Source: Cognatundibacterium aquatile
GTDB lineage: Bacteria; Pseudomonadota; Gammaproteobacteria; Burkholderiales; Burkholderiaceae_D
Length of the DNA stretch: 64,000 bases
Assembly: GCF_014699135.1 (NCBI RefSeq)
Contig: NZ_JACOFT010000002.1
Span: 310,001 to 374,000, forward strand
Direction: 5' to 3'
The notes below the pieces were generated by a model. That model saw nothing but the letters and a program-made list of their open reading frames with translations, did no database searches and was not told the DNA's origin. Position numbers and translations under genes: made by a program. Numbering within the stretch: position 1 is the first letter of the stretch; every line of letters begins with the position of its first letter. This document shows, piece by piece, positions 2,534-48,703 of this stretch.

Positions 2534-2613
2534 GTTTACATATACTCCCCCGGGTATATGTAAACACCCTTGATTAATATAGGGGAAATGCTTGTTTTTG
2601 CTGCATACTCCCC
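2534..2613 (+). repeat. Intergenic palindromic repeat, copy 1 (ATACTCCCC family)
   Basis: First of five related elements in this window. It opens with an inverted repeat of perfect 12-bp arms, GTTTACATATAC and GTATATGTAAAC, around a TCCCCCGG centre (2534-2565). It continues with a CACCCTTGATTAATA core and a GTTTTTGC segment, and closes with ATACTCCCC (2605-2613). The same order (palindrome, CCTT core, AAAAAGC-like segment, ATACTCCCC end) occurs at 8078, 28561, 33519 (inverted) and 48622. It lies between slyD and the J-domain cluster. Confidence 0.85.
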
Positions 2614-2784
2614 AAAATCATCTCATTTTTGGCACTCAGGCGATGTTTTTGCGGATTCGCAGCGCTGCTCATTCAGGTTGCGCCTGCTGCGCATGCAACG
2701 CTCATATTGCCGGAATTGTGTAGCCTGATGCCAATAGTTGCTATGGTTCTGCGAGTGTGAATGAGAAATGGAAGCGAAAAGCAG

Positions 2785-3063
2785 ATGAAAGATTATTACG
2801 TCATTCTCGGTATTGCGCCGAATGCGTCATTGTCGGATGTGAAAAAAGCCTTCCGCCAGAAAGCGGCAGAGTTTCATCCTGACCGGAACACATCGGAACT
2901 GGCGCCAGAAAAATTTCATGCGGTAAAAGAAGCCTACGACATTTTGTCTGACGATGCGGCGCGTGCTGCTTACGATGAAAATCGTCGTCGTAACTTGCTC
3001 GATTCTCCGCTGGAAACAGCGACAGACATCTGGAAGCATTATTTATCAGGAGTATTGAAGTGA
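2785..3063 (+). CDS. Minimal J-domain (DnaJ-type) co-chaperone
   Basis: The 92-residue protein consists of a J-domain (residues 2-66) and a short tail. MKDYYVILG opens helix I, the invariant HPD tripeptide is at residues 31-33, and FHAVKEAYDILSD forms helix III. It lacks the Gly/Phe region, zinc fingers and client-binding domains of DnaJ. By analogy such proteins stimulate Hsp70 ATPase for a dedicated client. An upstream in-frame ATG at 2761 exists; 2785 is chosen because J-domain proteins typically begin here and GGAAG lies 10 nt upstream. Its stop overlaps the GTG start of the next gene (GTGA), implying translational coupling. The client is probably one of the three downstream proteins, which is inference. 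Confidence 0.9.
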   Translation: MKDYYVILGIAPNASLSDVKKAFRQKAAEFHPDRNTSELAPEKFHAVKEAYDILSDDAARAAYDENRRRNLLDSPLETATDIWKHYLSGVLK

Positions 3064-3659
3064 AATTGTCCCGTTTTTTTGAGGATCTGATGGCGGTGTA
3101 TAACGCCGAAATCGAAGATTTGAAATCAGATTCCGAAGGCAAAAATGTCCTGAAGGCGCGTCTGCGTGAAAAAGGCGAGCAATTGCCTTTGTTGTTGCCA
3201 ATGATGGACTCCAATCCAGAAATGCTGGCATCGGCATTTCATCTGGGATTTATATTTTTGAATCCGCTGGCGCTGGAATCACTGACGACCCGCGAGGAAT
3301 CCAAATTACCCGCATGGAAAACCCTGTCGGCTGCCGTCAAGCTCGAACCTTGGGCGGAGCCGCTGAGCAAGATTGTGTTGCAAGAAGCGGGCGGTGAAAA
3401 ATTTCTGGTCATTGCGGCCGCGCTCGAATATCTGAATCGTGGTCAGCAAGCGCGCAAACACAGCGCCACCAATACGCTGGAAACCGACGACGAAGATAAA
3501 GAAATCAACGACGCGGATGAAGAATTGAAAGAAAACGGCGACCTCGATGGTAACTATGGTCGTCACGGGCGCGATGATGGCGATGATGGTGACGATTATG
3601 ATCTTGACGAAGCAGGCGCAGACTGGCTGGCTGAGCAAGGTTTCGACCGCAAAGACTAA
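3060..3659 (+). CDS. Unrecognised protein with acidic C-terminal tail
   Basis: I do not recognise this 199-residue protein. Residues 1-130 look like a compact, mainly helical domain (MKLSRFFEDLMAVYNAEIED, then hydrophobic helices around LLLPMMD and FHLGFIFLNPLALESL). From about residue 140 it becomes a low-complexity acidic tail rich in Asp, Glu and Gly (for example DDGDDGDDYDLDEAG), closing with DWLAEQGFDRKD. There is no signal peptide or transmembrane helix, so it is probably cytoplasmic. It starts at a GTG overlapping the stop of the J-domain gene, and the next gene follows after 9 bp, so the three are very likely one operon. Acidic tails often serve as protein or metal interaction surfaces. 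Confidence 0.75.
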   Translation: MKLSRFFEDLMAVYNAEIEDLKSDSEGKNVLKARLREKGEQLPLLLPMMDSNPEMLASAFHLGFIFLNPLALESLTTREESKLPAWKTLSAAVKLEPWAEPLSKIVLQEAGGEKFLVIAAALEYLNRGQQARKHSATNTLETDDEDKEINDADEELKENGDLDGNYGRHGRDDGDDGDDYDLDEAGADWLAEQGFDRKD

Positions 3660-3668
3660 GGATACAAG

Positions 3669-4427
3669 ATGAGCTTACCTGCATTAATTGAAGCGCAAAA
3701 CCTGATCATGGCGGGCGATATCGCCGGCGCGGAATTCGCACTGGCTAATATTGCTGAAACCGAAGGCGACAAAGCGCTGGTCGCTGCGTTGGATGATTTT
3801 CCGGCGAAAGATTTGCTGGCGATTATCCGTGAATACGATGCGTCTAAAGAGTCGCTGGTGAATCTGCTGGTGACGCCTGAGCAGTTCGCGCAGGCGGTCG
3901 TGCTGGAACGCCGTTATGGCGATCAGACGCATGAACAATTGCGCGGCATGATCAACTCCGTCATCTTCCGCGAAGGTGCTGATCCGGCAGAATTTTTGTA
4001 CGAAATCGCCGAAGTCGAAGGTGGCTACGATGCGCTGGTTGATTACCTGCTGGATCGTGCACCGATGGTCGAGCATTTTTATAAATATGCGACTTTCGAT
4101 TTATACGAATATGGCGACGGTGCGAAAACCCAGGCGCAGGAAGATGATCTGATGAATCTGGATCGCGATACCGAAAGTCTGGCGTCGCCGCTCGACATGG
4201 CGAATCTGGAAGATCACGACTGGATGCAGGTTACCTATCTGTTGCGTTACGAATTGCCGGAAATTTTCCGTGAAGTGCTGATGAAGCTGCGCGCCCGCTA
4301 TAAAGCGTATCTGGCGAGCCAGCAAAGCGATGAACTCGAAGGCGGCGAGAGCGAAGCAGAAGAAGATGAACGTCCTAAAAACAATGATGATGGCGATGAC
4401 AAGGATGACGAAGAATCCGCGCTGTAA
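3669..4427 (+). CDS. Unrecognised helical-repeat-like protein with acidic tail
   Basis: I cannot name this 252-residue protein with confidence. Residues 1-220 appear all-helical with short repeating units (IMAGDIAGAEFALANIAE, FPAKDLLAIIREYD, VTPEQFAQAVVLERRYGD), recalling HEAT- or TPR-like solenoids. The layout reminds me of proteins labelled DUF6178, but this is unverified. The last 35 residues are strongly acidic (EGGESEAEEDERPKNNDDGD), like the tail of the preceding protein. Spacing to the upstream gene is 9 bp. A terminator-like hairpin follows at 4450-4484. No signal peptide or membrane helix is seen, suggesting a cytoplasmic protein. Confidence 0.72.
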   Translation: MSLPALIEAQNLIMAGDIAGAEFALANIAETEGDKALVAALDDFPAKDLLAIIREYDASKESLVNLLVTPEQFAQAVVLERRYGDQTHEQLRGMINSVIFREGADPAEFLYEIAEVEGGYDALVDYLLDRAPMVEHFYKYATFDLYEYGDGAKTQAQEDDLMNLDRDTESLASPLDMANLEDHDWMQVTYLLRYELPEIFREVLMKLRARYKAYLASQQSDELEGGESEAEEDERPKNNDDGDDKDDEESAL

Positions 4428-4449
4428 TTTGTTGTCGGCATCCTGAATC

Positions 4450-4484
4450 AATGCAGAGCGCGGTGATCGTGTTCTGCATTTTTT
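4450..4484 (+). terminator. Probable intrinsic terminator after the J-domain operon
   Basis: AATGCAGA pairs with TCTGCATT across a 15-nt loop and is followed by a T run. It stands between the acidic-tail gene ending at 4427 and the 406-aa gene starting at 4560, so the latter may be only partly co-transcribed or may have its own promoter. Confidence 0.65.
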
Positions 4485-4559
4485 GTTAGTTTCCCTAATT
4501 CCGGTAAGTTGCTTGCGCCAATGTGCGTCAGCAGCGAGTAAAAAGCGAGTGAAGATACG

Positions 4560-5780
4560 ATGACAGCCTCTGTTTACGATATTGCCCTGATTGATAACCG
4601 GCCATTTTTTGAGTCGGCATTACGCTACGGCGTGCAAAAAGCCATCATTGCCAACAGCAAAATTGCAGCGATCGAAGCCGAAGCACCGAAAGGCATGGTG
4701 CAGATTGCGGAAGCGTTTGGCAGTAAATATCTGCGCCCAGAAATTGAACTGGCACGCAAGCGCATCGTCAACCTGGCGAGCCTGTATCTGATCGAAACAT
4801 CCAAAGGTGACCTGGAGCTGGCCGCCAGGCTGATTCGTGATAATACTTTTCTGAGCCTGTCACGCGGCGGTTCCGGCTTGTTGAAAGCCTTGTTTGCAAT
4901 GCCGGAATATGCTTTGCTTGGCCGCGAAACCAAAGGCAAGGTCGAAGATTTTCTCGATGCCTGGTCGCTCAAAGAAAATCCGCAGGAATACAGAAATGCG
5001 CTCGAACACCGCCAGCTCAACGCGCTGGAAATTCAGGCTGGATACTGGTTTGGCGAATGGCTGGGGCTGACGCCATCTTATCTGCAGGATGAAGATGTGG
5101 AAGCTGTGGGCGTCGTCCGCACCGCCTTGCTGGCACACATGTTTGGCGGCCCCGACGCCACGATCGAGAATCAGATTCAGTTTGCGACCTTACTGGAATC
5201 GATACGCGCGATGACACCGGCGAAACGTAATAAAGCGCTGGCATCAGCCGATTTATCAGAAGTGCCACCTAAGTTTTTGCCGGTGGTGCAGCGTATCATC
5301 GACGAAATCAAACAACACGATCTACCCGTGCTGCAAAACAAAACAACGCCGCTGGCACAACTGGTGTTTGCGCTGAAAGAGCGGTATTACCTTGGCGATC
5401 ATGAAATCGAAGATACCTCGGAATACGATGCGCTGGTATCGAAAGAATGGACGCGCCTGACCAAAGGCAAGACCGACGTTGATTCGCTGATGACCCTGTT
5501 TTTATGTATCTCAGCCGGTGTGCCGCCGAAAACCACGCTGACCGAAAAGGCTGCAAAAACCATCATCAAACAATTCCGCAACGAAGGCTTTAATCATGCC
5601 CTGGCGACCGCCTGGATCAAAGAATCTGCACCACATGAAAAACAGGAAGGCTTGCTGGAAGACTGGAATAATTTCGTCGAAGAAGCCAATCAATACCTGC
5701 TCGACGACTGGGACACCTACCTCACAGGCGCAATCCGTTTCCTGACGATGCACTGCCATATTCAGAAGGCGGGGAAATGA
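4560..5780 (+). CDS. Unrecognised 406-residue helical protein
   Basis: This long, well-coded frame encodes a 406-residue, apparently all-helical soluble protein that I do not recognise. No catalytic motif, signal peptide or transmembrane segment is seen. A helical pattern around residues 70-110 (VNLASLYLIETSKGDLELAA) and another near residues 150-180 (ALEIQAGYWFGEWLGL) suggest repeat-like architecture. It lies 132 bp downstream of the J-domain operon on the same strand, separated by a weak terminator, and ends before a bidirectional terminator at 5861-5897. Shared orientation and isolation from known genes suggest a functional link, but this is inference. Confidence 0.75.
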   Translation: MTASVYDIALIDNRPFFESALRYGVQKAIIANSKIAAIEAEAPKGMVQIAEAFGSKYLRPEIELARKRIVNLASLYLIETSKGDLELAARLIRDNTFLSLSRGGSGLLKALFAMPEYALLGRETKGKVEDFLDAWSLKENPQEYRNALEHRQLNALEIQAGYWFGEWLGLTPSYLQDEDVEAVGVVRTALLAHMFGGPDATIENQIQFATLLESIRAMTPAKRNKALASADLSEVPPKFLPVVQRIIDEIKQHDLPVLQNKTTPLAQLVFALKERYYLGDHEIEDTSEYDALVSKEWTRLTKGKTDVDSLMTLFLCISAGVPPKTTLTEKAAKTIIKQFRNEGFNHALATAWIKESAPHEKQEGLLEDWNNFVEEANQYLLDDWDTYLTGAIRFLTMHCHIQKAGK

Positions 5781-5860
5781 GTTACTTTGGGATGTCTGAG
5801 ACTGGGCGTGGTGCAGTGTCTGGAATGTCCGGAGGGTAAGCAGTAGGAAGTCTGAAAATA

Positions 5861-5897
5861 AAAAAAAGGGGCGACTTTGACAGTCACCCCTTTTTTT
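5861..5897. terminator. Bidirectional intrinsic terminator
   Basis: AAAAAAAGGGG, then CGACT pairing with AGTC, then CCCCTTTTTTT form a hairpin with A and T runs on both sides. It serves the 406-aa gene (+) and the YqhD-like gene (-), which converge. Confidence 0.85.
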
Positions 5898-5908
5898 GTT
5901 TTAGCTGC

Positions 5909-7069
5909 TTACAAACTCAATTCCAACACCTGACGGCTGACATCCAGCGTGACGTCGCGTTTTTCACCGATGGTGAGCATGCGGTGGGTTTCCAGTGCGG
6001 CGATGACGGGGGAGATGTCGTCTGCGCCGAGGTGGTAATCGCTGAGGCGGGTTTTGACGCCCATTTGCTCAAAGTAATCCTGCATGCGGCTGATGGCGGT
6101 GTCGATGCGGCTGTCTTCGCTGCCTTCACGCAGATCCCAGATGCGTTCAGCAAATTGCAGCAGCTTCGCGCGTTTGGCTTCTTTGCGTACGCGCAGCATG
6201 CTAGGCAACACGATGGCGAGTGTCTGTGCGTGGTCTATGCCATGCAGGGCGGTCAGTTCGTGGCCTATCATGTGGGTCGCCCAGTCTTGCGGCACGCCGG
6301 TAGAAATCAGGCCATTCAATGCCATCGTGGCGCACCACATCAGATTGGCGCGCACATCGTAATCCTGCGGATTGGCGAGGGCTTTCGGGCCTTCTTCGAT
6401 CAGGGTTTTGAGCAGTCCTTCGGCGAAGCGATCTTGTACTGGTGAATTGACCGGATAGGTCAGGTATTGTTCCATCACGTGGACGAACGCATCAACCGCG
6501 CCGTTGCCAATCTGGCGCGGCGGCAGGGTGTAGGTAGTGGTAGGGTCGAGAACCGAAAATTTAGGGAAGCAATGGCGGCTGCTGAACGCGAGTTTGGCTT
6601 TGATCGATTGACGGGTGACGACGCCGCCATCATTCATTTCTGAGCCTGTTGCTGGCAAGGTCAGGATGCTGCCGAAGGGCAGGGCTTTGGTCACGTTGCG
6701 ACCATGTTTTTCCATAATCGCCCACGGATCTCCGCCTTCAAACAGCGCTGCGGCCGCGATGAATTTAGTGCCATCAATGACCGAGCCGCCGCCGACCGCC
6801 AGCAGGAAATCAATATTGCCATGTTTGATGATGTCGACCGCTTTCATCAGCGTTTCATAGCTTGGGTTGGGTTCTATGCCGGAAAATTCTGTCACGCTGC
6901 GATTGCCGAGTGCGGCGATGACCTGATCAAACACGCCGTTTTGCTTGATGCTGCCGCCACCGTACAGCAACAATACTTTGGCATCTGCCGGTATGGCTTG
7001 ATGGATGTCGGCAATGCGGCCTTTACCGAACAGGATGTGAGTCGGATTGTAGAAATCGAAATTCAACAT
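5909..7069 (-). CDS. yqhD: NADPH-dependent aldehyde reductase, YqhD-like iron-containing alcohol dehydrogenase
   Basis: The product (386 aa) closely follows E. coli YqhD (387 aa), a zinc-dependent, NADPH-using reductase that detoxifies short-chain aldehydes such as glyoxal, butanal and acrolein. GGGSVIDGTKFIAAAA (nucleotide binding), LPATGSEMN, DAFVH (first metal ligands) and the HELTALHGIDHAQ block (remaining metal ligands) are all present. The start has a strong AAGGAGA site 8-14 nt upstream of the ATG. It is an isolated gene between two transcription units. Assignment to YqhD rather than general Fe-ADH rests on the near-identical length and motif order. Confidence 0.9.
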   Translation of the reverse strand: MLNFDFYNPTHILFGKGRIADIHQAIPADAKVLLLYGGGSIKQNGVFDQVIAALGNRSVTEFSGIEPNPSYETLMKAVDIIKHGNIDFLLAVGGGSVIDGTKFIAAAALFEGGDPWAIMEKHGRNVTKALPFGSILTLPATGSEMNDGGVVTRQSIKAKLAFSSRHCFPKFSVLDPTTTYTLPPRQIGNGAVDAFVHVMEQYLTYPVNSPVQDRFAEGLLKTLIEEGPKALANPQDYDVRANLMWCATMALNGLISTGVPQDWATHMIGHELTALHGIDHAQTLAIVLPSMLRVRKEAKRAKLLQFAERIWDLREGSEDSRIDTAISRMQDYFEQMGVKTRLSDYHLGADDISPVIAALETHRMLTIGEKRDVTLDVSRQVLELSL

Positions 7070-7132
7070 GGGCGTCTCCTTGAGAAAGTCTTATCTTAGC
7101 GTAAATTCAAAAAATAGATCGGTCGTTCGCAA

Positions 7133-7885
7133 TTAGCTGGCGAGGAACAGGAATACGGTTGGTTTTTTATGGAAATCAGGGGCTTGACCAGCGGAAAGTC
7201 GCTTCTTCCATTCTGCTGCGGTACGTGTTTGTATGGATTCTGTTGGTAATGTCAGATCAGTGGCGACGCAAATCAGGCTCTGTGCCTGACACTGGTTTGC
7301 CAGGGCTTCCAGCATGGCGGCGTTGCGATACGGCGTTTCTATCAGCAGTTGCGTTTGCTTTTCTTTGCGCGAACGGTCTTCCAGCTCTTTGATGCGTTTC
7401 GCGCGTAACGCGGCATCGGTTGGCAGGTAGCCGTGAAAGGCGAAACTCTGACCATTCAGGCCGCTACCCATCAGGGCCAGCAGCAGGGATGAGGGCCCGA
7501 CCAGCGGCCTGACCGTGATGTTGCGCTGATGCGCGAGCCGTACCAGATTAGCACCGGGGTCAGCAACGGCGGGAACGCCAGCCTCAGAAATCAGACCGAC
7601 ATCATGTCCTTGCAGCAGCGGTTGCAGCAAGCCTTCGAGCGCCTGCGCCGGGGTGTTGACGTTGAGTTCGCTGATCTGAATATCCTGCATCGCCAGTTTT
7701 AAGGGGTGATGCTGACCGAGAAATTTCAGATAGGCGCGGGTGGTCTTGGCATTCTCTGCAACGAAATAACTGAGCTGCGCGGACATGGATTGCACGGTAT
7801 CGGGAATGATTTTCGCCAGCAAGCCGTCTTGCTGCCCTTCGTTGTAGCCCAGCGTGTTAGGAATGAGGAATAGTGTGCCTGTCAT
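7133..7885 (-). CDS. RsmI-like SAM-dependent methyltransferase (tetrapyrrole methylase fold)
   Basis: This 250-residue protein belongs to the tetrapyrrole/corrin methylase superfamily and resembles RsmI, which 2'-O-methylates C1402 of 16S rRNA. Visible features are the N-terminal GTLFLIPNTLG strand, the SEAGVPAVADPGANLV motif (residues about 98-113), the VGPSSLLLALMGSGLNGQ SAM-binding loop and an ETPYRN motif. It differs from canonical RsmI in the start region (usually LYVVATPIGNL), so it is probably the divergent paralogue often encoded near maf and yceD in Burkholderiales. Its substrate is unknown. It lies downstream of maf on the same strand but 311 bp away. Confidence 0.82.
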   Translation of the reverse strand: MTGTLFLIPNTLGYNEGQQDGLLAKIIPDTVQSMSAQLSYFVAENAKTTRAYLKFLGQHHPLKLAMQDIQISELNVNTPAQALEGLLQPLLQGHDVGLISEAGVPAVADPGANLVRLAHQRNITVRPLVGPSSLLLALMGSGLNGQSFAFHGYLPTDAALRAKRIKELEDRSRKEKQTQLLIETPYRNAAMLEALANQCQAQSLICVATDLTLPTESIQTRTAAEWKKRLSAGQAPDFHKKPTVFLFLAS

Positions 7886-8077
7886 GGGGAAATCTTTTTT
7901 AATATGAAGCTGAAATAAAGCTGAAAAATAGTGCTGAAAATAAAGCTAAAAATAAGTTGATATGTTTTTTTATGCCGACACACAACTGTCGCAGCGACGA
8001 TATCATTCTTGTTTGTAGCGTTTTGCCGTCGCCGTACTTTACTGAAATATGCTTACTGACGTCATATTTGTGCTTAT

Positions 8078-8151
8078 AAATACTGGGGGGAGTATATTTT
8101 TACGTCCTTGTTTTACGCTGACAATAAGGCGAAAAAGGCAGATACTCCCCC
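8078..8151 (+). repeat. Intergenic palindromic repeat, copy 2 (ATACTCCCC family)
   Basis: Begins with AATACT-GGGGGG-AGTATATT (8079-8098). The core is CGTCCTTGTTTTACGCTGACAA, followed by AAAAAGGCAG, and it ends with ATACTCCCCC. The TTTACGCTGACAAT core is shared with copy 4. It lies in the 311-bp gap between the RsmI-like gene and maf (7886-8196), which otherwise holds no recognisable feature. Confidence 0.85.
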
Positions 8152-8196
8152 AATTTTGCTAAAAACAGAGCATTTTTCTGAGTTATTATCGATTCA

Positions 8197-8814
8197 TCAG
8201 CGATAAAACTGAACGCCAGCGTTGCGCAGCATGTCTGTCAGTGCAATCAATGGCAATCCCGTCAGTGCGGTCGGATCATCGCTTTGTATCGACGCTAAGA
8301 TGCTGATGCCGAGCGCTTCGTTTTTCGCGCTGCCGGCGCAATCGTAGGGCTGTTCAATACGCAGATAGGCATCGAGTTCTGCATCCGGCAAATCGCGGAA
8401 GCGGACGATGGTCTGCACGTCGCGCAATTGCACCGCTGGCTGCGCGCCTGAGCGGGTATCCAACAGGCATAATGCGGTATGGAAAACGACTTCTTTGCCG
8501 CGCATGAGTTGCAATTGTTTTAAGGCGCTGGCATGATCGCCGGGTTTGCCGATGTGGATGCCATTCAGTGTCGCAACCTGGTCGGAACCGATAATGAGTG
8601 CATTTTCTGCGGAATTTTCAGCAGACGATGCTAACTGTCTGGCGATGGCTTCAGCTTTTTGTTGTGCCAGCCGCAGGGCGGTGGCGTCCGGTGTTTCGCC
8701 ATGGTGGGCGGTTTCATCGATATCCGGCACCAGTGAATCGAATGGGATTTGCAGCCGGGATAATAATTCGCGGCGATAGACCGAGCTGGAGGCAAGAATC
8801 AGGCGTGGATTCAT
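8197..8814 (-). CDS. Maf family nucleotide pyrophosphatase, YceF subgroup
   Basis: Maf proteins hydrolyse non-canonical nucleotides; the YceF subgroup prefers 7-methyl-GTP. The 205-residue product shows LASSSVYRRELLSRL (residues 5-19), DIDE, GSDQVATLNG with the catalytic Asp, GKPGDHASALKQL, and the C-terminal TALTGLPLIALTDML. The SSSVYRRELL and GSDQV forms point to YceF rather than to the dTTP/UTP group. The start at MNPRLILASSS is preferred by alignment; an in-frame ATG at 8865 would add 17 residues rich in Ser and His. It is transcribed away from the yceD-rpmF operon. Confidence 0.88.
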   Translation of the reverse strand: MNPRLILASSSVYRRELLSRLQIPFDSLVPDIDETAHHGETPDATALRLAQQKAEAIARQLASSAENSAENALIIGSDQVATLNGIHIGKPGDHASALKQLQLMRGKEVVFHTALCLLDTRSGAQPAVQLRDVQTIVRFRDLPDAELDAYLRIEQPYDCAGSAKNEALGISILASIQSDDPTALTGLPLIALTDMLRNAGVQFYR

Positions 8815-8943
8815 CAGGCTTGCGTTGTGCTGTGAGTGCGGTGAGTCAGACTGGTGCTTGATCATATTCAGGGAATTCAGCGGGAAATAGCAGGTGTAAG
8901 AGCTGGTGTAAGTCGTTTTGGCTTAAAAAATGCCTGTAAGCCT

Positions 8944-8973
8944 TTGACTAACAAGGCCGAGTGCTGTTATTAT
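8944..8973 (+). promoter_or_regulatory. Probable sigma-70 promoter of the yceD-rpmF-plsX-fab operon
   Basis: TTGACT (8944-8949) and TATTAT (8968-8973) are separated by 18 bp and lie 28 bp before the yceD start. Both hexamers are near consensus. The position in the divergent maf/yceD gap supports the call. Confidence 0.65.
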
Positions 8974-9001
8974 CGCAGGTTTTCTGGGTTCAAATAATCC
9001 T

Positions 9002-9526
9002 ATGCAAGCTTTTGTGATTGACGCTTTCGCGTATTGTCGGCTCGAAGAGCAGCGTTCGGGAAGCATTTTAGTCGCAGATTTACCCCGGCTTTCAGGCGAG
9101 AGTGCAAACACCGATGGTGCATTGAACTGGTCTTTGTCTGGCGGTAAAGATGCACTGGGTCATCCACGGCTGGTGTTGAGTGTGACTGGTAGCGTGAATC
9201 TGATGTGCCAGCGCTGCCTGACACCATTTGCATATGAAATTGACTCTGAATCTGTATTGATACTCGCCAAAAACGAAGAAAATGCCGATGAAATTGACGC
9301 ATTGCTTGATGATGACGAGGTCGATGTTGTAGTAGGCAGCAAAGCATTTGATGTCAATGATTTGATCGAAGATGAAGCGCTGCTCGCAATACCCCAATCG
9401 CCCAAACATGCAGTATGCCCGGATGTATCGTTGGCTTCAGCAAATACTACTGCAGCGATTGAAGCAGAAGTCAGTAAAAAAGAATCACCTTTTGCTGTGT
9501 TGAAGAAAATTAATGGGCGTACCTAG
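9002..9526 (+). CDS. yceD: YceD family protein (DUF177), 23S rRNA accumulation protein
   Basis: The 174-residue product belongs to DUF177/YceD, a protein implicated in 23S rRNA accumulation and ribosome assembly. The typical CQRCLTPF motif (about residues 69-76), where two cysteines resemble half a metal site, is present, as is the acidic segment LLDDDEVDVV and the C-terminal SPFAVLKKI, which matches the family's usual end. The linkage yceD-rpmF-plsX-fab is conserved across proteobacteria and fits the order here. It is first in the operon, with a promoter at 8944-8973. Confidence 0.92.
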   Translation: MQAFVIDAFAYCRLEEQRSGSILVADLPRLSGESANTDGALNWSLSGGKDALGHPRLVLSVTGSVNLMCQRCLTPFAYEIDSESVLILAKNEENADEIDALLDDDEVDVVVGSKAFDVNDLIEDEALLAIPQSPKHAVCPDVSLASANTTAAIEAEVSKKESPFAVLKKINGRT

Positions 9527-9664
9527 TGGCATTATTCTGAAAAAACACTCAGGTCGAAGTATTGTTAGGGATTCTTGGTTGGCGATGTTCGCATTGCGAT
9601 GTGCGCATTCTTTAGCCAGGTGTGTAAATTTTTAGAAACATTTTTTGAAGTATTAGGAGTTATC

Positions 9665-9847
9665 ATGGCAGTTCAGCAAAATAAAAAGTCCCCATCCAAG
9701 CGTGGCATGCACCGTTCCCACGATTTCCTGACTGCACCACAGTTAGGTATCGAGCCAACAACTGGTGAGACACATCTGCGTCACCACATCAGCCCTAACG
9801 GCTTTTACCGTGGTCGTAAAGTATTGAAAACTAAGAACGACGAGTAA
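9665..9847 (+). CDS. rpmF: 50S ribosomal protein L32
   Basis: L32 is a small protein of the large ribosomal subunit. The 60-residue product begins [20 protein letters not shown] and ends [12 protein letters not shown], the normal betaproteobacterial form with many basic residues and no zinc-binding cysteines. The frame extends upstream to 9575 but the true start is the ATG at 9665, preceded by AGGAG at 9654-9658. It follows yceD by 138 bp and is followed by a terminator at 9868-9906, so part of the transcription stops before plsX. Confidence 0.97.
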
Positions 9848-9867
9848 TCTCTGTTCTTGTTAAAGGA

Positions 9868-9906
9868 AGCGGCGTGACGAGTCTCGTACTTGGCGCCGCT
9901 TTTTTT
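9868..9906 (+). terminator. Intrinsic terminator after rpmF
   Basis: AGCGGCG and CGCCGCT form a GC-rich stem around a 19-nt loop containing a second small dyad (ACGAGtCTCGT), followed by seven T residues. It probably attenuates transcription from rpmF into plsX. Confidence 0.8.
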
Positions 9907-10093
9907 ACGCCTGTTTTTCCCGAATTCTGGTGTTCAGATTTGTCTGTGCCCTGATTTTATAAACACGTTTCTGGATCCAGACTGATTTTCTCTGTTTTTT
10001 CTTTTTTTCATTTCTGTGTGGAAATGGAATTGACGGAAATTGCCTCTCCGTTTGGTACACTAGTCGTTTCGGATCGAAGTTTAGTAACACTAC

Positions 10094-11164
10094 ATGACAA
10101 TAAAAATTTCCATAGACTGCATGGGTGGCGATCACGGCCCGTCAGTTACAGTGGCGGCGGCGGTTGCTTTCGCTCATCGCGAGCCTGATGTTGAATTTCT
10201 GCTGGTCGGGCTTGAATCCGTTATCCAGGCTGAACTTAAAAAGAACCATGCCGAACATCATCCACGCATGAAAATAATCCACGCTACCGAAGTGGTGGAA
10301 ATGGACGATCCTATCGAGATTGCACTGCGTCGGAAAAAAGATTCTTCAATGCGTGTTGCCGTCACTCAGGTAAAAGACGGACATGCGCAAGCCTGCGTCT
10401 CAGCTGGCAACACAGGTGCTTTGATGGCGGTATCGCGTTACGTCCTGAAGACCATGCAAAGCGTGGATCGCCCAGCAATCAGCGGCATGCTGCCAAATCA
10501 AAAAAATCTGCCGACTTACATGCTGGATCTCGGTGCGAACGTTGATTGCGAACCTTTGCATCTGCATCAGTTTGCGATTATGGGATCGGCACTGGTATCT
10601 GCGCTGGAAGGTAAGGAAAGACCGAGTATTGGTCTGTTGAACGTCGGTGAAGAGGATATTAAGGGTAATGACGTCGTTAAAAAAACCGCGCAGTTGCTGC
10701 GGGCTGATCACGAACGTGGGTTGTTGAATTTTTATGGCAACGTTGAGGGTAATGATATATTTAAAGGCACCACCGACATCGTGGTGTGTGACGGTTTCGT
10801 CGGTAACGTGACCTTGAAAGCAGCCGAGGGCATGGGGCGTTTTGTAAAGACGACCCTGACTGGCGCATTTAAGAGTAATCCATTGAATATGTTGGGTGCG
10901 CTGATTGCGCGCGGTGCTTTAAAGTCGATTTCGCAGACGATGAACCCTTCCAACTACAATGGCGGTTGTTTACTTGGTTTGCGCGGTCTGGTTTTTAAAA
11001 GCCACGGCAGTGCAGATAAATATAGCTATGAGTGGGCAATACAGCGCGCATTTGATGCGGCAAAAAATGATGTCCTGACTCGTATTTCTAATTCGATGGC
11101 GAAACTCATGCCAGTGGCAGACCTGGCTTCGCCTGAAGATAATAATGACCTGATGGCAAAATAA
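10094..11164 (+). CDS. plsX: Phosphate acyltransferase PlsX
   Basis: PlsX makes acyl-phosphate from acyl-ACP, feeding PlsY for phospholipid synthesis; it is a peripheral membrane enzyme. The 356-residue protein begins [20 protein letters not shown] and contains [30 protein letters not shown] and [16 protein letters not shown], all characteristic. A possible promoter, TTGACG with TACACT near 10031-10062, has a 20-bp spacing, longer than usual. fabH follows after 4 bp, indicating co-transcription. Confidence 0.97.
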
Positions 11165-11168
11165 GCGC

Positions 11169-12155
11169 ATGACAATTTTTAGCAAAATCATAGGTACTGG
11201 CAGCTATCTGCCAGCAAAAAAAGTCAGTAACCAAGAGTTGGCTGACCAGTTGGCAAAAAAAGGGATAGAAACTTCCGACGAGTGGATCGTTTCCCGTAGC
11301 GGCATTTCATCACGCCATTATGCGGATGAAGGGGAGAAGTCCAGCGATATGGGTGTCGAGGCCGCGAAAAAAGCGCTGGAAGCAGCGAAGCTGACGCCTG
11401 ATGACATTGATTTGATTATTCTGGCGACGTCCACCCCGGATTTTATTGGTGGATTTCCGAGTACAGCCTGCGTGGTGCAGAATAAATTGGGCTTGACCAA
11501 TGGTGCGCCTGCGATGGATGTGCAGGCCGTTTGCAGCGGCTTCATGTACGGCATGTCTATCGCTGACAGCATGATTAAATCCGGTGCGCATAAAAATGTG
11601 CTGGTCATCGGGGCGGAAGTGTTTTCCCGTATTCTTAATTTTGATGATCGCACCACTTGCGTGTTGTTTGGAGATGGCGCCGGTGCGGTGATAATGAGTG
11701 CGTCGAATGAACCCGGGGTGCTGGCGACCAAGTTGCATGCCGATGGCGGATACGCAGACATCTTGTCTGTGCCAGGTACTGTGCAGGATGGCGCCATTGC
11801 AGGAAGTGGTTATTTGCAGATGGATGGCCAGGCAGTCTTTAAACTGGCGGTATCTGTGTTGGAAAAAGTGGCGAATGAGGCATTGGCGCAGGCTGGCTTG
11901 AACGCGGAGGATATTGACTGGCTGATTCCTCATCAGGCAAATCTGCGCATCATGCACAGTACCGCAAAGAAAATGCGTTTGCCTTTAGAGAAGTTGGTCG
12001 TGACGGTTGATCAGCATGGCAATACGTCGGCGGCGTCAATTCCTCTGGCACTGGATCAGGCTGTGCGCGATGGCAGGGTACAGCCCGGCCATAAAATATT
12101 GTTAGAAGGCGTTGGTGGCGGATTTACCTGGGGTGCCGCCATTGTGCAGATGTAG
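11169..12155 (+). CDS. fabH: 3-oxoacyl-ACP synthase III
   Basis: FabH starts fatty acid synthesis by condensing acetyl-CoA with malonyl-ACP. The 328-residue product has the Cys-His-Asn triad: Cys122 in [10 protein letters not shown], His in [10 protein letters not shown] and Asn in HGNTSAAS. The C-terminal [13 protein letters not shown] is typical. It starts 4 bp after plsX and ends 33 bp before fabD. Confidence 0.97.
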
Positions 12156-12188
12156 TAATCAACATAACCAAAGAGAGACATAGATAAT

Positions 12189-13121
12189 ATGACCCAATTT
12201 GCATTTGTATTTCCCGGGCAGGGTTCGCAAGCGATCGGCATGCTGAATGGCTTTGCTGATAATCCTGTGGTTCAGCAAACGATCGCTGAGGCATCTGATG
12301 CCTTGCAGTTTGATCTGGGAAAACTGATTTCCGAAGGGCCGAAGGAAGCGCTCGATTTAACGACGAATACGCAGCCGGTGATGTTAACTGCTGCGGTTGC
12401 CTGTTACCGCGCATGGATTGCTGCTGGTGGTGCTGCACCTAAATTGGTGGCAGGCCATAGTCTCGGTGAATATTCCGCATTAGTGGCTGCCGGCGTGATT
12501 GCGTTTAAAGATGCGGTTCCTCTGGTACGGTTTCGTGCGCAGGCAATGCAGGATGCCGTGCCTGTTGGTCAAGGCGGAATGGCGGCGATTCTTGGCTTGA
12601 GCGATGAGGATGTCATTGCTGCGTGTAACGAAGCGGCCGAGGGTGAGGTTGTTGAAGCCGTCAATTTCAATGCGCCTGCGCAAGTGGTGATTGCAGGTAG
12701 TAAGGCGGCTGTTGAGCGCGCCTGCGAAATTGCCAAAGCAAAAGGCGCCAAGCGCGCTCTGACGCTGCCAGTTTCCGCACCATTTCACTCGTCCTTGCTC
12801 AAACCAGCATCTGACAAGCTGCGTGAATATATGGCTGGGATCGCGTTTTCGGCACCAGCGATTCCATTGATTAATAACGTTGACGTCGCGATCGTGACAG
12901 ATCCTGCGCTGATCAAAGATGCTTTGGTTCGTCAGGCGGCGAGTCCGGTTCGTTGGGTTGAAACCATTCAGGCGGTACATGCAAGTGGTATACGCAACGT
13001 TATTGAATGCGGTCCTGGCAAGGTATTGGCTGGTTTGACTAAGCGTATTAATGCAGAACTGATCGGTGAAGCAATTTACGATCAGGTAACTCTGGAAAAA
13101 GTATTGGAATCTTTAAAATGA
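12189..13121 (+). CDS. fabD: Malonyl CoA-acyl carrier protein transacylase
   Basis: FabD moves the malonyl group from CoA to ACP. The 310-residue product begins MTQFAFVFPGQGSQ. The nucleophilic serine is in GHSLGEYSAL, the catalytic His in APFHSSLL, and the substrate Arg in VRFRAQAMQ. The stop overlaps the fabG start by 4 bp (ATGA), showing translational coupling. Confidence 0.97.
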   Translation: MTQFAFVFPGQGSQAIGMLNGFADNPVVQQTIAEASDALQFDLGKLISEGPKEALDLTTNTQPVMLTAAVACYRAWIAAGGAAPKLVAGHSLGEYSALVAAGVIAFKDAVPLVRFRAQAMQDAVPVGQGGMAAILGLSDEDVIAACNEAAEGEVVEAVNFNAPAQVVIAGSKAAVERACEIAKAKGAKRALTLPVSAPFHSSLLKPASDKLREYMAGIAFSAPAIPLINNVDVAIVTDPALIKDALVRQAASPVRWVETIQAVHASGIRNVIECGPGKVLAGLTKRINAELIGEAIYDQVTLEKVLESLK

Positions 13122-13870
13122 CCCGACAATTAGAAAATCAAGTCGCTTTAGTGACCGGCGCATCGCGCGGTATTGGTAAGGCAATTGCTATTGCATTGGC
13201 ACAGGCTGGTGCAAAGGTGATCGGTACTGCAACGACTGAAGCAGGTGCTGAGGCGATTTCTGCCTATCTTGCCGATGTTGCCCCTGGTGCAGGCAAGGGC
13301 GTTGCATTCAACGTGAATGATGTTGAGCGCTGTACGTCACTGGTGGATGAAATCCAGAAGGAATACGGCAGTCTGTCAATTCTCGTTAATAATGCGGGAA
13401 TTACTCAGGATCAGCTTGCAATGCGTATGAAAGAAGAAGATTGGGATAACGTTATCACCACCAATCTGAATTCAGTGGCCCGTTTATCCCGTGCAGTATT
13501 GCGCGGCATGATGAAGGCAAAACATGGCCGCATCATCAATATTACGTCTGTGGTCGGTTCATCCGGTAATCCGGGGCAAATGAACTATGCTGCGGCTAAG
13601 GCAGGTGTGGCTGGCATGAGTCGTGCATTGGCGCGTGAGATCGGTAGCCGCAACATTACCGTTAACTGTATTGCTCCCGGATTTATCGATACGGATATGA
13701 CAAAGGCGCTGACGGATGAGCAAAAGGCGGCAATTTTGGTGCAAATCCCGATGGCGAAACTTGGTCGTCCGGAAGATATTGCAGCAGCAACGGTCTTTTT
13801 GGCGTCGCCAGATGCAGGTTATATTACCGGTACGACCCTTCATGTTAATGGTGGGATGTACCTGGCATAA
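13118..13870 (+). CDS. fabG: 3-oxoacyl-ACP reductase
   Basis: FabG reduces 3-ketoacyl-ACP with NADPH in each elongation cycle. The 250-residue short-chain dehydrogenase has the cofactor motif GASRGIGKAIA, NNAGIT, a catalytic serine region (NITSVVGSSGNPGQ), the YxxxK motif in YAAAKAG, and ends in GTTLHVNGGMYLA. It overlaps fabD by 4 bp and lies 149 bp before acpP. Confidence 0.97.
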   Translation: MTRQLENQVALVTGASRGIGKAIAIALAQAGAKVIGTATTEAGAEAISAYLADVAPGAGKGVAFNVNDVERCTSLVDEIQKEYGSLSILVNNAGITQDQLAMRMKEEDWDNVITTNLNSVARLSRAVLRGMMKAKHGRIINITSVVGSSGNPGQMNYAAAKAGVAGMSRALAREIGSRNITVNCIAPGFIDTDMTKALTDEQKAAILVQIPMAKLGRPEDIAAATVFLASPDAGYITGTTLHVNGGMYLA

Positions 13871-13937
13871 TTTATTTAACGATAGTTGGCGGTAATTTCT
13901 GCGAAAATAACAGGAGTTATTGCTAAAATCGTCAGGC

Positions 13938-13968
13938 TTGCTTTTTTTGCGTACAAACCTGCTAAAAT
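13938..13968 (+). promoter_or_regulatory. Possible acpP promoter
   Basis: TTGCTT (13938-13943) and TAAAAT (13963-13968) are separated by 19 bp, about 50 bp before acpP. acpP usually has a strong promoter of its own in addition to read-through from fabG, which fits, but the spacing is long and the -35 is weak. Confidence 0.35.
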
Positions 13969-14019
13969 GCGCGCACTTTCTGTAAGCCCTTATTTTTGAT
14001 TTTTTCACTGGAGATACAC

Positions 14020-14259
14020 ATGTCCGATATCGAACAACGCGTTAAGAAAATCGTCGCTGAACAACTGGGCGTCGCTGAAGCTGACATCAAAATTGAATCC
14101 TCTTTCGTTGATGATCTGGGTGCTGATTCCCTTGATACCGTTGAACTGGTGATGGCACTCGAAGACGAATTCGAAATGGAAATCCCTGACGAACAAGCTG
14201 AAAAAATCACAACTGTGCAACAAGCGATTGATTACGCTACTGCACACGTTAAGGCGTAA
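14020..14259 (+). CDS. acpP: Acyl carrier protein
   Basis: ACP carries growing acyl chains on a phosphopantetheine arm. The 79-residue acidic protein begins [17 protein letters not shown] and has the GADSLDTVE motif with Ser37 as the attachment site. The start is the ATG at 14020, with TGGAG at 14009-14013, not the upstream in-frame ATG at 13996. fabF follows after 35 bp. Confidence 0.98.
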
Positions 14260-14294
14260 TTCGGTTACCACGTTTTTAAATCCAGGAGAAGCGC

Positions 14295-15536
14295 TTGAGT
14301 CGTACGCTTAAACGTCGTGTCGTTGTAACCGGACTTGGATGTATCTCGCCCATTGGCAATTCAATTGCTACCGCGTGGGATGCTGCAAAAGCTGGCAAAT
14401 CTGGTATCGCTACGATTACCAAATTTGATGCAACTCCCTTTTCCACGCATTTCGCTGGAGAAGTGAAGGACTTCAATGTCGAGGATTACATTCCGGCAAA
14501 AGAAGCTCGTAACATGGACACTTTCATCCATTTCGGCATTGCCGCGGGGATGCAGGCGTTTCAGGACAGTGGAATGGTTGTTACCGAAGAGAATGCCGAA
14601 CGCATCGGTGTTATCGTCGGTTCCGGTATCGGTGGCTTGCCGCTGATCGAAGCAACGAAAGAAACCTTGATTGAACGTGGTCCACGCCGCATCAGCCCAT
14701 TTTTCGTGCCAGCGTCTATCATCAACATGATTTCGGGTAATTTATCGATCAAATATGGCTTGAAAGGGCCAAATCTGGCGATAGTTACAGCATGCACGAC
14801 CGGCCTGCATTGTATAGGTCAGGCTGCACGCATGATTGAATACGGTGATGCAGACGCGATGATTGCCGGTGGTGCAGAGTCAACGATTTCTCCGTTAGGT
14901 TTGGGTGGCTTTGCGTCAGCCCGGGCGCTTTCTTCCCGTAATGATGATCCTGCGACTGCCTCTCGTCCTTGGGACAAAGACCGCGATGGCTTTGTACTTG
15001 GCGAAGGTGCTGGCGTCATGATGCTGGAAGAATATGAACATGCGAAGGCGCGTGGTGCAAAAATTTATGCTGAAGTGATTGGCTTCGGTATGAGTGGTGA
15101 TGCATATCACATTACTTCGCCTAGTATGGACGGTCCACGCCGCAGTATGATTAACGCAATGAAAAATGCGGGTATTAATGCTGATCAGATTGATTATCTG
15201 AATGCACATGGAACGTCGACGCCGTTGGGTGATAAGAATGAGACTGACGCGATTAAGGCAACATTTGCGGACCATGCATATAAATTGACGGTGAATTCCA
15301 CTAAATCCATGACGGGGCATTTGCTCGGTGGTGCAGGCGGGATTGAATCTGTATTTACGGTATTGGCACTGCATAATCAGGTGTCACCACCGACAATTAA
15401 TATTTTTAATCAAGATCCTGAGTGTGACCTCGACTATTGTGCAAACGTAGCCAGAGACATGAAAATTGACTATGCGATGAAGAATTCGTTTGGTTTTGGC
15501 GGTACAAACGGAACTTTGATTTTCGCAAAAATATAA
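14295..15536 (+). CDS. fabF: 3-oxoacyl-ACP synthase II
   Basis: FabF elongates acyl-ACP, including the temperature-dependent palmitoleate to vaccenate step. The 413-residue protein has Cys167 in TACTTGLHC, His in [12 protein letters not shown] and His in [14 protein letters not shown], followed by [12 protein letters not shown]. It starts at TTG, supported by a strong AGGAGA site at 14284-14289 and by alignment of [13 protein letters not shown] near the N-terminus. A terminator at 15553-15594 closes the operon. Confidence 0.96.
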
Positions 15537-15552
15537 TTCATCAGTACATTAG

Positions 15553-15594
15553 AAAAAGGCACTTTGTTTCTTTGAAATGAAGTGCCTTTTTGTT
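15553..15594 (+). terminator. Intrinsic terminator after fabF
   Basis: AAAAAGGCACTT pairs with AAGTGCCTTTTT across a 15-nt loop with a following T-rich stretch. It ends just before the start codon of the next gene (15598). Confidence 0.88.
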
Positions 15595-15597
15595 TAT

Positions 15598-28560: not shown

Positions 28561-28636
28561 AAAATACTCCCGGGGAGTATTTTTATAGCGCCTTATTTAT
28601 CAAGGAGGTTATGGGGTAAAAAGCCATATACTCCCC
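28561..28636 (+). repeat. Intergenic palindromic repeat, copy 3 (ATACTCCCC family)
   Basis: Begins with the near-perfect palindrome AAAATACTCCC-G-GGGAGTATTTT (28561-28583), then the core TAGCGCCTTATTTATCAAGG, then GGGTAAAAAGCC, ending with ATACTCCCC (28628-28636). The TCAAGGA...GGTAAAAAG arrangement is shared with copy 5. It lies between divergent genes. Confidence 0.88.
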
Positions 28637-33518: not shown

Positions 33519-33592
33519 GGGGAGTATGTTGCTTTTTGCTGTAATTGTCAGCGTAAATAAAGGGCTTTTAAATATACTCCGGGGAGTATATT
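33519..33592 (-). repeat. Intergenic palindromic repeat, copy 4 (ATACTCCCC family, inverted)
   Basis: Read on the minus strand it begins with AATATACTCC-CC-GGAGTATATT (33592-33571), then AAGCCCTTTATTTACGCTGA, then AGCAAAAAGC, ending with ATACTCCCC (33527-33519). The TTTACGCTGACAAT core matches copy 2. It lies immediately upstream of the ABC-F start codon, so the ABC-F promoter or leader must lie in or across it. Confidence 0.85.
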
Positions 33593-36250: not shown

Positions 36251-36266
36251 GTTGCGTGTATTGGCT

Positions 36267-43577: not shown

Positions 43578-47064
<3,487 letters not shown>

Positions 47065-47065
47065 A

Positions 47066-47941
47066 ATGAGAAAAATTAAAAAAGCCGTTTTTCCTGTTGC
47101 CGGTTTGGGCAGCCGTTTTTTACCGGCGACTAAAGCGCAACCAAAGGAAATGCTGCCTATCGTCGATAAGCCGCTGATCCAGTATGCGGTCGAAGAAGCA
47201 GTGGAAGCGGGGATTACAGAAATGGTGTTCATCACCGGCCGGAACAAGCGCGCGATTGAAGATCATTTTGATAAAGCCTACGAACTCGAGAGCGAGCTTG
47301 AGGCCGCAGGCAAGGAAGCGTTGCTTGATCTCGTGCGCAATGTGATTCCGAAAAGCGTTAATTGTATTTATATCCGTCAACCTGCCGCGCTTGGACTTGG
47401 TCACGCGGTGCTGTGTGCCCGCCCGGTGATTGGCGATGATCCTTTTGCCGTTCTGCTGGCCGATGATCTGATGGATGCCGATGTTGGTCAGCCATCAGTC
47501 ATGGCGCAGATGACGAAGCAATATGAGGCTGAAGGTGGCAGTATTATTGCGGTACAGGATGTACCACGCGAATTCACCCGTCAGTACGGTATCGTCAGTG
47601 GCACGCCATACAAAGACAGACTCGAGCGTATGCAGGGAATTATTGAGAAACCGATGCCGGATGTCGCGCCTTCGACCCTGGCCGTGGTCGGGCGCTATAT
47701 TTTGTCCGGTCGTATTTTCTCTTACCTCGAAAATCTGGGCAAAGGATCTGGCGGTGAGATTCAATTGACCGATGGTATTGCGGCGATGCTGAAAGATTAC
47801 CCTGTCTATGCGTTCCGCCCGGCAGCAACACGTTATGACTGTGGTTCTAAACTGGGCTACCTCAAAGCCAGCGTCGCACTTGGTTTGAAACACAAAGAAA
47901 CCAGCGCAGAATTTACTGAATTCTTAAAATCGATCAAGTAA
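47066..47941 (+). CDS. galU: UTP-glucose-1-phosphate uridylyltransferase
   Basis: GalU makes UDP-glucose for surface polysaccharides and galactose use. The 291-residue enzyme has [20 protein letters not shown], the nucleotidyltransferase signature, followed by [27 protein letters not shown], and the [11 protein letters not shown] block. It starts 1 bp after ligA, so it is probably co-transcribed with smc-zipA-ligA. A terminator follows. Confidence 0.96.
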
Positions 47942-47962
47942 TCAGCCACATAATTGCAGCGT

Positions 47963-47994
47963 GACCAGATCATTGCGATCTGGTCTTTTTTTTT
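47963..47994 (+). terminator. Intrinsic terminator after galU
   Basis: GACCAGATC and GATCTGGTC form a 9-bp stem around ATTGC, followed by nine T residues. It ends the smc-zipA-ligA-galU operon. Confidence 0.92.
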
Positions 47995-48060
47995 GCGTCT
48001 TTTTTAAATTGATGTATCTTGGCTGACGCGATAGCTATCAATCTGAAGTAAGGAAGAAAT

Positions 48061-48594
48061 ATGATCCATCCGATTTTGAAAATGGGCGATCCGCGTTTGT
48101 TGCGCGTCGCAGAGCCAGTTACTGAATTCGATACGCCGGAACTACATCAGTTGATCAGTGAGATGTTTGAGACCATGGCTGCGGCCAATGGTGCGGGTTT
48201 GGCTGCACCACAAATCGGCGTGAATCTGCAATTGCTTATTTTTGGCTTTAAATCGAATCCGCGTTATCCCGATGCACCCGTTGTGCCGGAAACAGTCTTG
48301 CTCAATCCCGTGCTGACGCCACTCGGTGATGAAACCGACGAGGCCTGGGAAGGTTGCTTGTCGGTACCCGGAATGCGCGGGCTGGTGCCGCGTTGGTCGT
48401 CTTTGCGATATGAAGGTGTCGATCAGTTCGGCAAGCCTATCTGTCGTGACGTCGATGGTTTTCATGCGCGCGTCGTGCAGCATGAATGCGATCATCTGAA
48501 CGGCATTTTGTATCCGATGCGCATCCGCGATATGACGCAATTCGGTTTTACCGAAGTATTATTTCCGGAACTGGACCCCGCAGACGACGACTAA
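48061..48594 (+). CDS. def: Peptide deformylase
   Basis: Def removes the formyl group from nascent proteins. The 177-residue metalloenzyme has [20 protein letters not shown] with ligand Cys99, and HECDHLNG with His141, Glu142 and His145. An AAGGAAG site lies upstream. It is not next to fmt, unlike in many bacteria; this may be a second copy, which the window cannot tell. Confidence 0.96.
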
Positions 48595-48621
48595 TCCTGT
48601 ATCCGGCTTTGTAGGGGGCTG

Positions 48622-48703
48622 AATATACTCCCCCGGAGTATTATTTACAGCCCTTATTATTCAAGGACATGAGGTGTAAAAAGACAAAAATAGGGGGGAG
48701 TAT
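48622..48703 (+). repeat. Intergenic palindromic repeat, copy 5 (ATACTCCCC family)
   Basis: Begins with AATATACTCCCCCGGAGTAT, then the core TTTACAGCCCTTATTATTCA, then GTGTAAAAAG, ending in GGGGGGAGTAT (48693-48703), the inverted form of the end in other copies. It lies between the convergent def and pseudouridine synthase genes, where no other terminator is seen. Confidence 0.88.

Follow-up and report, generated by a model that had tools for sequence, protein, structure and literature searches.

MatP with its matS sites, SlmA and Noc are nucleoid-associated or chromosome-organising proteins that act through dispersed sites. Two further kinds of described system come close to the repeat treated here. 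Regulators of the CsoR/RcnR family bind operators such as TACT-G6-N-AGTA (type 1, E. coli RcnR; accessible part of PMC7055735) or TACX9GTA with flanking G-tracts (CsoR; accessible part of PMC3902906), and in the same portions of these two papers RcnR is reported to wrap DNA (PMC7055735, PMC3902906). GTAG/CGTC-tagged repetitive extragenic palindromic (REP) sequences and the REP-associated tyrosine transposases (RAYTs) form the other kind, the sequences being described in the accessible part of PMC3733652 as short, intergenic, palindromic, downstream of genes and present in many copies. Here we report on a family of bipartite repeats found in a stretch of 64,000 nucleotides from Cognatundibacterium aquatile (GCF_014699135.1, contig NZ_JACOFT010000002.1, positions 310,001 to 374,000; hereafter the window). 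We read the repeats as candidate sites at which an orphan protein of the CsoR/RcnR family, called B in this text, binds the chromosome, and give this reading a probability of about 0.6.

As far as the accessible parts of those papers describe them, RcnR and CsoR operators share with our repeat a TAC/GTA dyad around a G/C tract and a site at the regulator's own gene. Unlike them, the repeat occurs at dozens to more than 100 sites per genome, mostly near 3' ends of genes, and combines a full and a half site at two fixed distances. In having many chromosomal sites for one small DNA-binding protein the system would resemble MatP/matS, SlmA and Noc. It differs in that the listed sites of two relatives, G016 and G014, show no departure from an even spread (Kolmogorov-Smirnov p 0.21 and 0.91; no clustering was detected in these or along contig C1 of the window genome, p 0.23) and in that B comes from a family known as metal or small-molecule sensors.

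Copy number, anatomy and spacing

The sequence-only reading of the window had described five intergenic copies, and all five are confirmed at the positions claimed. The exact nonamer ATACTCCCC is found ten times in the window, twice per copy and nowhere else, against a mean of 0.15 and a maximum of 2 in 100 dinucleotide shuffles. The same reading had set a genome-wide profile search as a check, and this took the family well beyond five. In the 3.9 Mb genome (17 contigs, C1 being one of them) a covariance model built from 17 copies gave at least 150 copies among the best 150 of 1018 candidates, the weakest with an E value of 2.6e-6. This is a lower bound, since only those 150 candidates were scored and some copies of the longer spacing class described below (C1:55473, 102899, 297683 and 343695) are missing from them. 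The nonamer itself occurs 283 times, against 5 for a reversed control, and ATACT-N6-AGTAT occurs 112 times against 4. The proposal of a dispersed family that carries dyads and lies mostly between genes is borne out, the genome being one of the Oxalobacteraceae; the proposed density of one copy per roughly 13 kb holds for the window and drops to one per 21.5 kb in an 819-kb stretch of C1 with 38 copies. Copy numbers per genome range from dozens to well over 100 in Undibacterium and some related bacteria. A literature search confined to titles and the starts of abstracts, with most subscription papers outside its reach, found no description of these repeats or of B, and the occurrences of the nonamer in published text are, among the matches listed, apparently primers, aptamers or chance.

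A copy consists of a full palindrome, P, of the form ATAC-N8/9-GTAT, and a half of it, H. P in the window genome is mostly ATACT followed by six or seven G/C and AGTAT, many copies having a run of six G or six C as the loop; in other lineages the dyad persists around mixed cores. H retains either the left arm (ATACTCCCC) or the right arm (GGGGAGTAT), and in an alignment of 17 copies its G/C tract falls in one column regardless of which arm is kept; spacing was therefore measured from tract centre to tract centre. The second end had first been taken for the same motif as the first. It is in fact this half-palindrome, with ATACTCCCC in copies 1-4 and GGGGAGTAT in copy 5, and the fixed feature is the distance between tract centres. 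The two sub-types proposed earlier reflect differences within the inner stretch.

The distance between P and H takes two values. Exact half-site pairs within 200 bp, taken from the 819 kb of C1 and the window, lie 62 (44 pairs), 63 (13), 64 (1), 73 (1) or 74 bp (3) apart, leaving aside values of 0-1 bp, which arise within a palindrome, and two stray pairs (17 and 21 bp); one copy may contribute more than one pair to these counts. With one mismatch the pairs fall at 62 (28), 63 (9), 73 (2) and 74 bp (3), with single values at 17, 21, 25, 45, 66, 98, 99, 101 and 153 bp, and a reversed-motif control gave 3 scattered pairs from 69 sites, as compared with 251 real sites. When any spacer of 50-95 bp was permitted, all elements of C1 (38), Undibacterium rivi (G028; 19), U. 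griseum (G030; 10) and G013 (3), together with the five of the window (62, 62, 62.5, 63 and 63.5 bp), were spaced by 61.5-63.5 or 73-74 bp. For 23 of the 31 nonamers in 260 kb of G015 a palindrome is found no more than 110 bp away, and its distance is 62.5-64.5 or 73-73.5 bp. A pattern permitting 56-78.5 bp gave 150 listed matches in G015, G016 and G014, and 149 of these lie at 62-64.5 or 72.5-74.5 bp: 23 at 62.5-64.5 and 43 at 72.5-74 in G016 (66 of 66), 15 at 62-64.5 and 20 at 72.5-74.5 in G014 (35 of 35), and 35 at 62-63.5 and 13 at 73-73.5 in G015, where 49 of 68 matches were listed and the one remaining is at 69.5. In genus g41 all 12 pairs listed under a 50-90 bp filter measure 63.0 bp. 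At two orthologous loci, those of window copies 2 and 4, the distance is 62 bp in the window genome and 73 bp in G015, a difference of one turn. The two spacing classes are six or seven helical turns, one DNA turn apart, and such whole-turn distances suggest double-stranded DNA bound by a protein. The sequence-only reading had overlooked this fixed distance, which speaks for protein binding.

Conservation between species and place relative to genes

All five window copies are found at the same places in U. rivi, which has about 92% DNA identity to the window genome. Over about 400 kb, 14 of 14 copies outside a six-copy cluster are common to both genomes in place and direction, and one of 19 U. 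rivi copies is without a counterpart. Of the six cluster copies, the first agrees with U. rivi in both place and direction, another has a reversed copy at its place, one (C1:75665) has no counterpart and three are ambiguous. No clean empty site, from which the ends of the element and any target-site duplication could be read, was found in the relatives compared. U. griseum stands further off (76% identity) and its intergenic DNA is otherwise unalignable with that of the window genome; 8 of its 10 copies nevertheless fall in a matching interval (268-7153 bp) that holds a copy, with the same direction in 8 of 8. In these eight pairs the arms of P agree at 80 of 80 positions and the arms of H at 37 of 40, values biased upward by an element finder that tolerates at most one mismatch per site, and by eye the retained arm of H is identical in all eight. 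The cores of P (27 of 50), the lost arm of H (23 of 40) and the spacer (225 of 380) agree far less, and the flanks, at 0.54-0.59, are at about alignment noise. Eight of 24 G015 elements have both flanks in the compared stretches of the window genome, and four of these match a copy with agreeing direction, window copies 2, 4 and 5 among them; at these shared places the letters between P and H follow the G015 lineage.

The two spacing classes differing by one turn, the constancy of the arms and of the places, and the turnover of the letters in between together lead us to propose a protein that touches P and H from the same side of the double helix.

Some lineages carry a further dyad between P and H whose letters, judged by eye, are lineage-specific: CCTT..AAGG in the window genome, TGTCCA..TGGACA in G015, TGCGCA..TGCGCA in G016, CCGCA..TGCGG in genus g13 and GCCAG..TGGC in g41. 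Its centre lies 29-30 bp before H in the long spacing classes of G015, G016 and G014 and in the short class of G015. The paired fraction reaches 0.77, 0.70 and 0.47 in these long classes (G015, G016 and G014 respectively), against a background of 0.26-0.28; in the short classes it is 0.56 in G015 and a weak 0.43 in G016, and in the short class of G014 the inner dyad is absent. The window genome and U. griseum show an indistinct dyad (0.46-0.47, with equal peaks elsewhere). At offsets 5-9 of the G016 long class, with 2-4 pair types, pairing exceeds that of shuffled partners and none of 2000 shuffles reaches it, although such values are not strict probabilities because copies within one genome are related. 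Compensatory changes are seen in both spacing classes of G015 and in the long class of G016. In a few copies, e.g., G015:C1:1280681 and G016:C1:1562150, the absent turn seemingly lies between inner dyad and H and not between P and dyad, a possible third layout.

Gene context in the 819-kb stretch rests on a home-made gene finder. The 33 short-class elements there occupy 16 convergent gaps (three of these assignments rest on the poor gene prediction around C1:65-68 kb, in the cluster), 15 tandem and 2 divergent ones, as against 54, 239 and 100 among the 393 gaps of at least 90 nt. For 36 elements in gaps, 50 of the 72 flanking gene ends are 3' ends, at a median distance of 66 nt; random placement gave 29.9 (standard deviation 3.8, maximum 40 in 500 trials). 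Lying near 3' ends and pointing either way, the elements may form a block that separates neighbouring genes, or they may have an architectural role.

The candidate protein B and its distribution

B is the best candidate for the protein in question because of its family, the pair of sites at its own gene and its co-occurrence with the repeat. Its gene lies outside the window (C1:55177-55488) and encodes a protein of 104 amino acids that matches PF02583 at 57.8 bits (cut-off 22.8); one copy of the repeat in this genome sits at a CsoR-family gene. Across 39 Undibacterium genomes the PF02583 score, by which B was assigned (18 sequences were additionally read), separates B at 50-62 bits from a paralog at 76-88 bits that is FrmR-like by eye. 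The helix 1 sequence RLAR is invariant in 14 of 14 and 25 of 25 B homologs and is of the RLxR type given as the DNA-contact motif of the CsoR family in the accessible part of PMC3902906. P in the window genome, with TAC and GTA 8-9 bp apart and a G/C tract inside, has the operator dyad of this family. The usual metal ligands of CsoR/RcnR proteins are a conserved Cys, a His at +25 and a Cys or His at +29. In alignments of B, read by eye, +25 is Ser, Ala or Thr and +29 mostly His or Gln, the Cys being kept in all rows except the divergent form of G003 (U. squillarum type); with the usual ligand pattern missing, B may bind constitutively or sense something else.

In 17 of 18 Undibacterium B loci read, an ATAC..GTAT palindrome lies upstream of the gene; the remaining one, that of G020, has a near-match. 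Thirteen loci carry GATACTCCC at codons 3-6. Palindrome and codon 3-6 half-site form a pair spaced by 72-73.5 bp in all ten motif-rich genomes read (G000, the window genome, and G006, G013, G014, G016, G018, G021, G023, G026 and G030), motif-rich meaning at least 45 nonamers (ATACTCCCC) per genome. Only one of eight poor genomes has the pair at about this distance (G022, 74 bp), a contrast drawn post hoc. B itself is present in 14 of 14 motif-rich and 9 of 25 poor Undibacterium genomes (Fisher p 9e-5, uncorrected for ancestry; 4 of the 16 genomes lacking B are less than 75% complete). Nonamer counts are 8-27 in the nine poor genomes with B and 3-11 in the 16 without. On a glnD tree (474 bases, 27 genomes) B changes at least three times and richness six times, and no B-less lineage is rich.

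A similar picture is obtained from 235 genomes of the whole family. The pattern ATAC-N8/9-GTAT-N44-60-ATACYCCC, which detects one H type only, matches in 60 of them (reversed control, 0), and 68 are scored as carrying B by a profile of this protein with a cut-off of E <= 1e-20. Both are present in 54, B only in 14, the pattern only in 6 and neither in 161; the Fisher p of 6e-33 overstates the association, since the genomes are related. In the five pattern-only genomes with matches listed, four show odd lengths (80-85) that may be chance, and G256 is 81% complete. Counts of 36-117 are reached in six Undibacterium, four g13 and two g41 genomes; the other 48 genomes, mainly of g4, g12, g19, g29 and g42, have 1-3 matches. 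A short-peptide scan of named genomes, with two patterns that favour near relatives, found 53 B-like loci, 46 of them in Undibacterium, Solimicrobium, Sapientia, Collimonas, Massilia, Oxalobacter-, Paucimonas- and Burkholderiales-type metagenome-assembled genomes and similar, and 7 in other groups at less than 50% identity.

At 19 loci read in the genera with one or two sites, the site lies in front of a gene, and single sites in these genera look like operators. In g29 the site lies between a PfkB-like kinase gene (below the Pfam cut-off) and a small gene. In g19 and some g12 and g4 genomes the single site is upstream of a strongly conserved gene of about 113 amino acids (MTNQVGIDMNSD...) with no Pfam match. 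Other g12 and g4 sites stand between a DUF1415 gene and a gene that is lytic-transglycosylase-like by eye, the fragment searched having no Pfam match.

As we picture it, B would bind P and H on one helix face and may wrap or loop the 62-73 bp between them, and the resulting nucleoprotein block at gene ends could limit read-through and interference between neighbouring genes, or contribute to the organisation of the nucleoid. Ancestrally B probably had an ordinary role, with one or two operator-like sites as in B-bearing related genera, and the Undibacterium B seems to regulate itself; the set of sites would then have expanded to dozens or more than 100 per genome in some Undibacterium lineages, g13 and g41. 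That a repressor of a metal-sensor family has in this way come to serve the whole chromosome as a boundary or architectural protein, with helically phased, two-part sites that grew in number in several Oxalobacteraceae lineages from one or two operators to dozens or more than 100 and with letters between the sites that change with lineage at fixed places, is a tentative proposal that we hold to be somewhat more doubtful than probable. Dispersed bacterial repeats are usually classed as inert or selfish. This repeat bears the marks of a protein-binding site, namely distances one turn apart, conserved places, changing letters between, and a candidate protein open to purification or deletion. With this system one can ask directly how an operator turns into an element spread over a genome, and what a CsoR fold does without its usual metal site.

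Several observations weigh against the binding of these sites by B. One concerns G023, which carries B and is next after U. rivi by GlnD identity, yet a 75-kb stretch of it, like one of G027, contains no element, and alignment shows the places of copies 4 and 5 to be vacant in both genomes (as is that of copy 2 in G027; copies 1-3 were not placeable in G023). B is also present in nine low-count Undibacterium genomes and in 14 family genomes without a match; one g41 genome, G078, has B and no twin-site match, while two congeners have 60 and 117. At the B gene of poor genomes the pair measures 58.5 (G034 and G019), 60.5 (G032), 70.5 (G027) or 82 bp (G004), with none found in G020 and G003, so that the two spacing classes break down in these genomes; the corresponding pair in Sapientia and Solimicrobium is at about 69-70 bp (match lengths 77-78). 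No such palindrome stands upstream of the ten Massilia and six Collimonas B genes read. Beyond the window genome, U. rivi and U. griseum the palindrome core is often mixed, ATACT-S6-AGTAT being absent from G011, G026 and G015. The inner dyad is weak or absent in the window genome, U. griseum and the short classes of G016 and G014, and there is no orientation bias toward the nearest gene 3' end (17:17). The tree test is underpowered, its well supported branches yielding 2 independent pairs (p 0.5-1), and another protein could read the sites.

Alternative explanations and individual copies

The repeats might instead act at the RNA level, as terminators or as stabilisers of mRNA 3' ends, with P and the inner dyad as hairpins and the regular distance between P and H a by-product. 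The position near gene 3' ends fits this, as do the compensatory changes in the inner dyad, the RNA fold z of -2.1 to -4.0 for the five window copies, and, both judged by eye, the ordinary terminators at the copy 5 site of two element-free relatives and a few terminator-like G016 copies. Nonetheless, we think it rather unlikely: the whole-turn distances are kept although the letters between have diverged, the predicted pairings are not alike among the five copies, many copies of the window genome have a P loop made of six G or of six C, and the inner dyad is weak in this genome and in U. griseum. An Rfam scan of the window gave no RNA family match at gathering score.

A different, unrecognised protein, e.g., a nucleoid protein, might bind the sites, B simply sharing the ancestry of the genomes. 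The few changes of B on the Undibacterium tree, only three, would be in keeping with this. However, P fits the kind of operator known for the family to which B belongs, all ten rich genomes read carry the pair at their B gene, and B and the repeat co-occur across several genera; we regard this alternative as unlikely.

It should also be considered that the repeat is a miniature mobile element, of the REP/REPIN type (REPINs being REP-derived hairpin elements) or a miniature inverted-repeat transposable element, moved by a transposase in trans that recognises its hairpins and ends, the B promoter having just caught a copy. The sequence-only reading had leaned this way, with a REP-like or small non-autonomous element, and as the accessible part of PMC3733652 describes REPs, they too are short, intergenic, palindromic, multi-copy and downstream of genes. 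High copy number, inner sequence common within a genome, the cassette-like six-copy cluster (C1:64-76 kb) and its copy 75665 without U. rivi counterpart are points in favour. Another is that, among 15 Y1 transposase loci from 14 carriers, a nonamer lies within about 140 bp, on one side, in three (G035, G015 and G021, the last with a pair). Against this, the search for a cognate REP transposase showed that the only Y1 (RAYT-like) gene of the window genome has no element within the surrounding 5.5 kb, and Y1 genes occur in 38 of 39 Undibacterium genomes, non-carriers included. No GTAG/CGTC tetranucleotide was seen at the palindrome ends, either as a conserved column of the 17-copy alignment or, by eye, in flanks of 20-25 nt; unlike REPs, the elements measure 70-90 bp with two spaced sites. 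The places and directions shared with U. rivi and U. griseum (14 of 14 outside the cluster, 8 of 10, and 8 of 8 for direction) count further against mobility, the two spacing classes would go unexplained, and the earlier reading is not sustained; we judge it improbable.

The individual copies of the window differ in their surroundings and in their presence among relatives beyond U. rivi. Copy 1 (2534..2613, plus strand) has P at 2542-2557 within a longer inverted repeat (2534-2565) and H at 2605-2613 (ATACTCCCC), has an RNA fold z of -3.96, and its place is also occupied in G013. Copy 2 (8079..8151, plus; P 8080-8095, ATACTGGGGGGAGTAT; H 8142-8150) is directly 3' of the minus-strand maf gene (8197-8865), and its place is occupied in G013 and, with 73-bp spacing, in G015. 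Copy 3 (28561..28636, plus) has P at 28564-28580, H at 28628-28636 and the inner dyad CCTTATTTATCAAGG; the matching gap in G013 and U. griseum is without an element. Copy 4 lies on the minus strand (33519..33592; P 33574-33589, H 33519-33527), 16 bp upstream of the start of a minus-strand gene for a double-ABC (ABC-F type) ATPase (31515-33503), and its place is occupied in G015, with 73.5-bp spacing, and not in G013, U. griseum, G023 or G027. Copy 5 (48622..48703, plus; P 48625-48641; H of the other arm, GGGGAGTAT, 48695-48703) sits between convergent genes ending at 48594 and 48739 and is matched in G013, U. griseum and G015. In G023 and G027, which lack copy 5, the two convergent genes are separated at the counterpart of window 48595-48738 by what looks, by eye, like an ordinary hairpin followed by a run of T.

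The six-copy cluster was viewed in a 19-kb stretch of C1 (60000-79000), of which it occupies positions 4363-15736. An attC/integron reading was considered, since most cluster genes and all six repeats run in one direction, and was set aside, with no integrase noticed among the listed open reading frames of the 19 kb, to which no search by protein family was applied, and no attC core visible by eye. The six same-strand elements, five of them inside a repeated unit of 175 nt, stand between small mixed genes, and a repeat of 62-98 nt (TTAATTTGACAAAA..) recurs several times in the same stretch, giving it the look of a cassette-type array.

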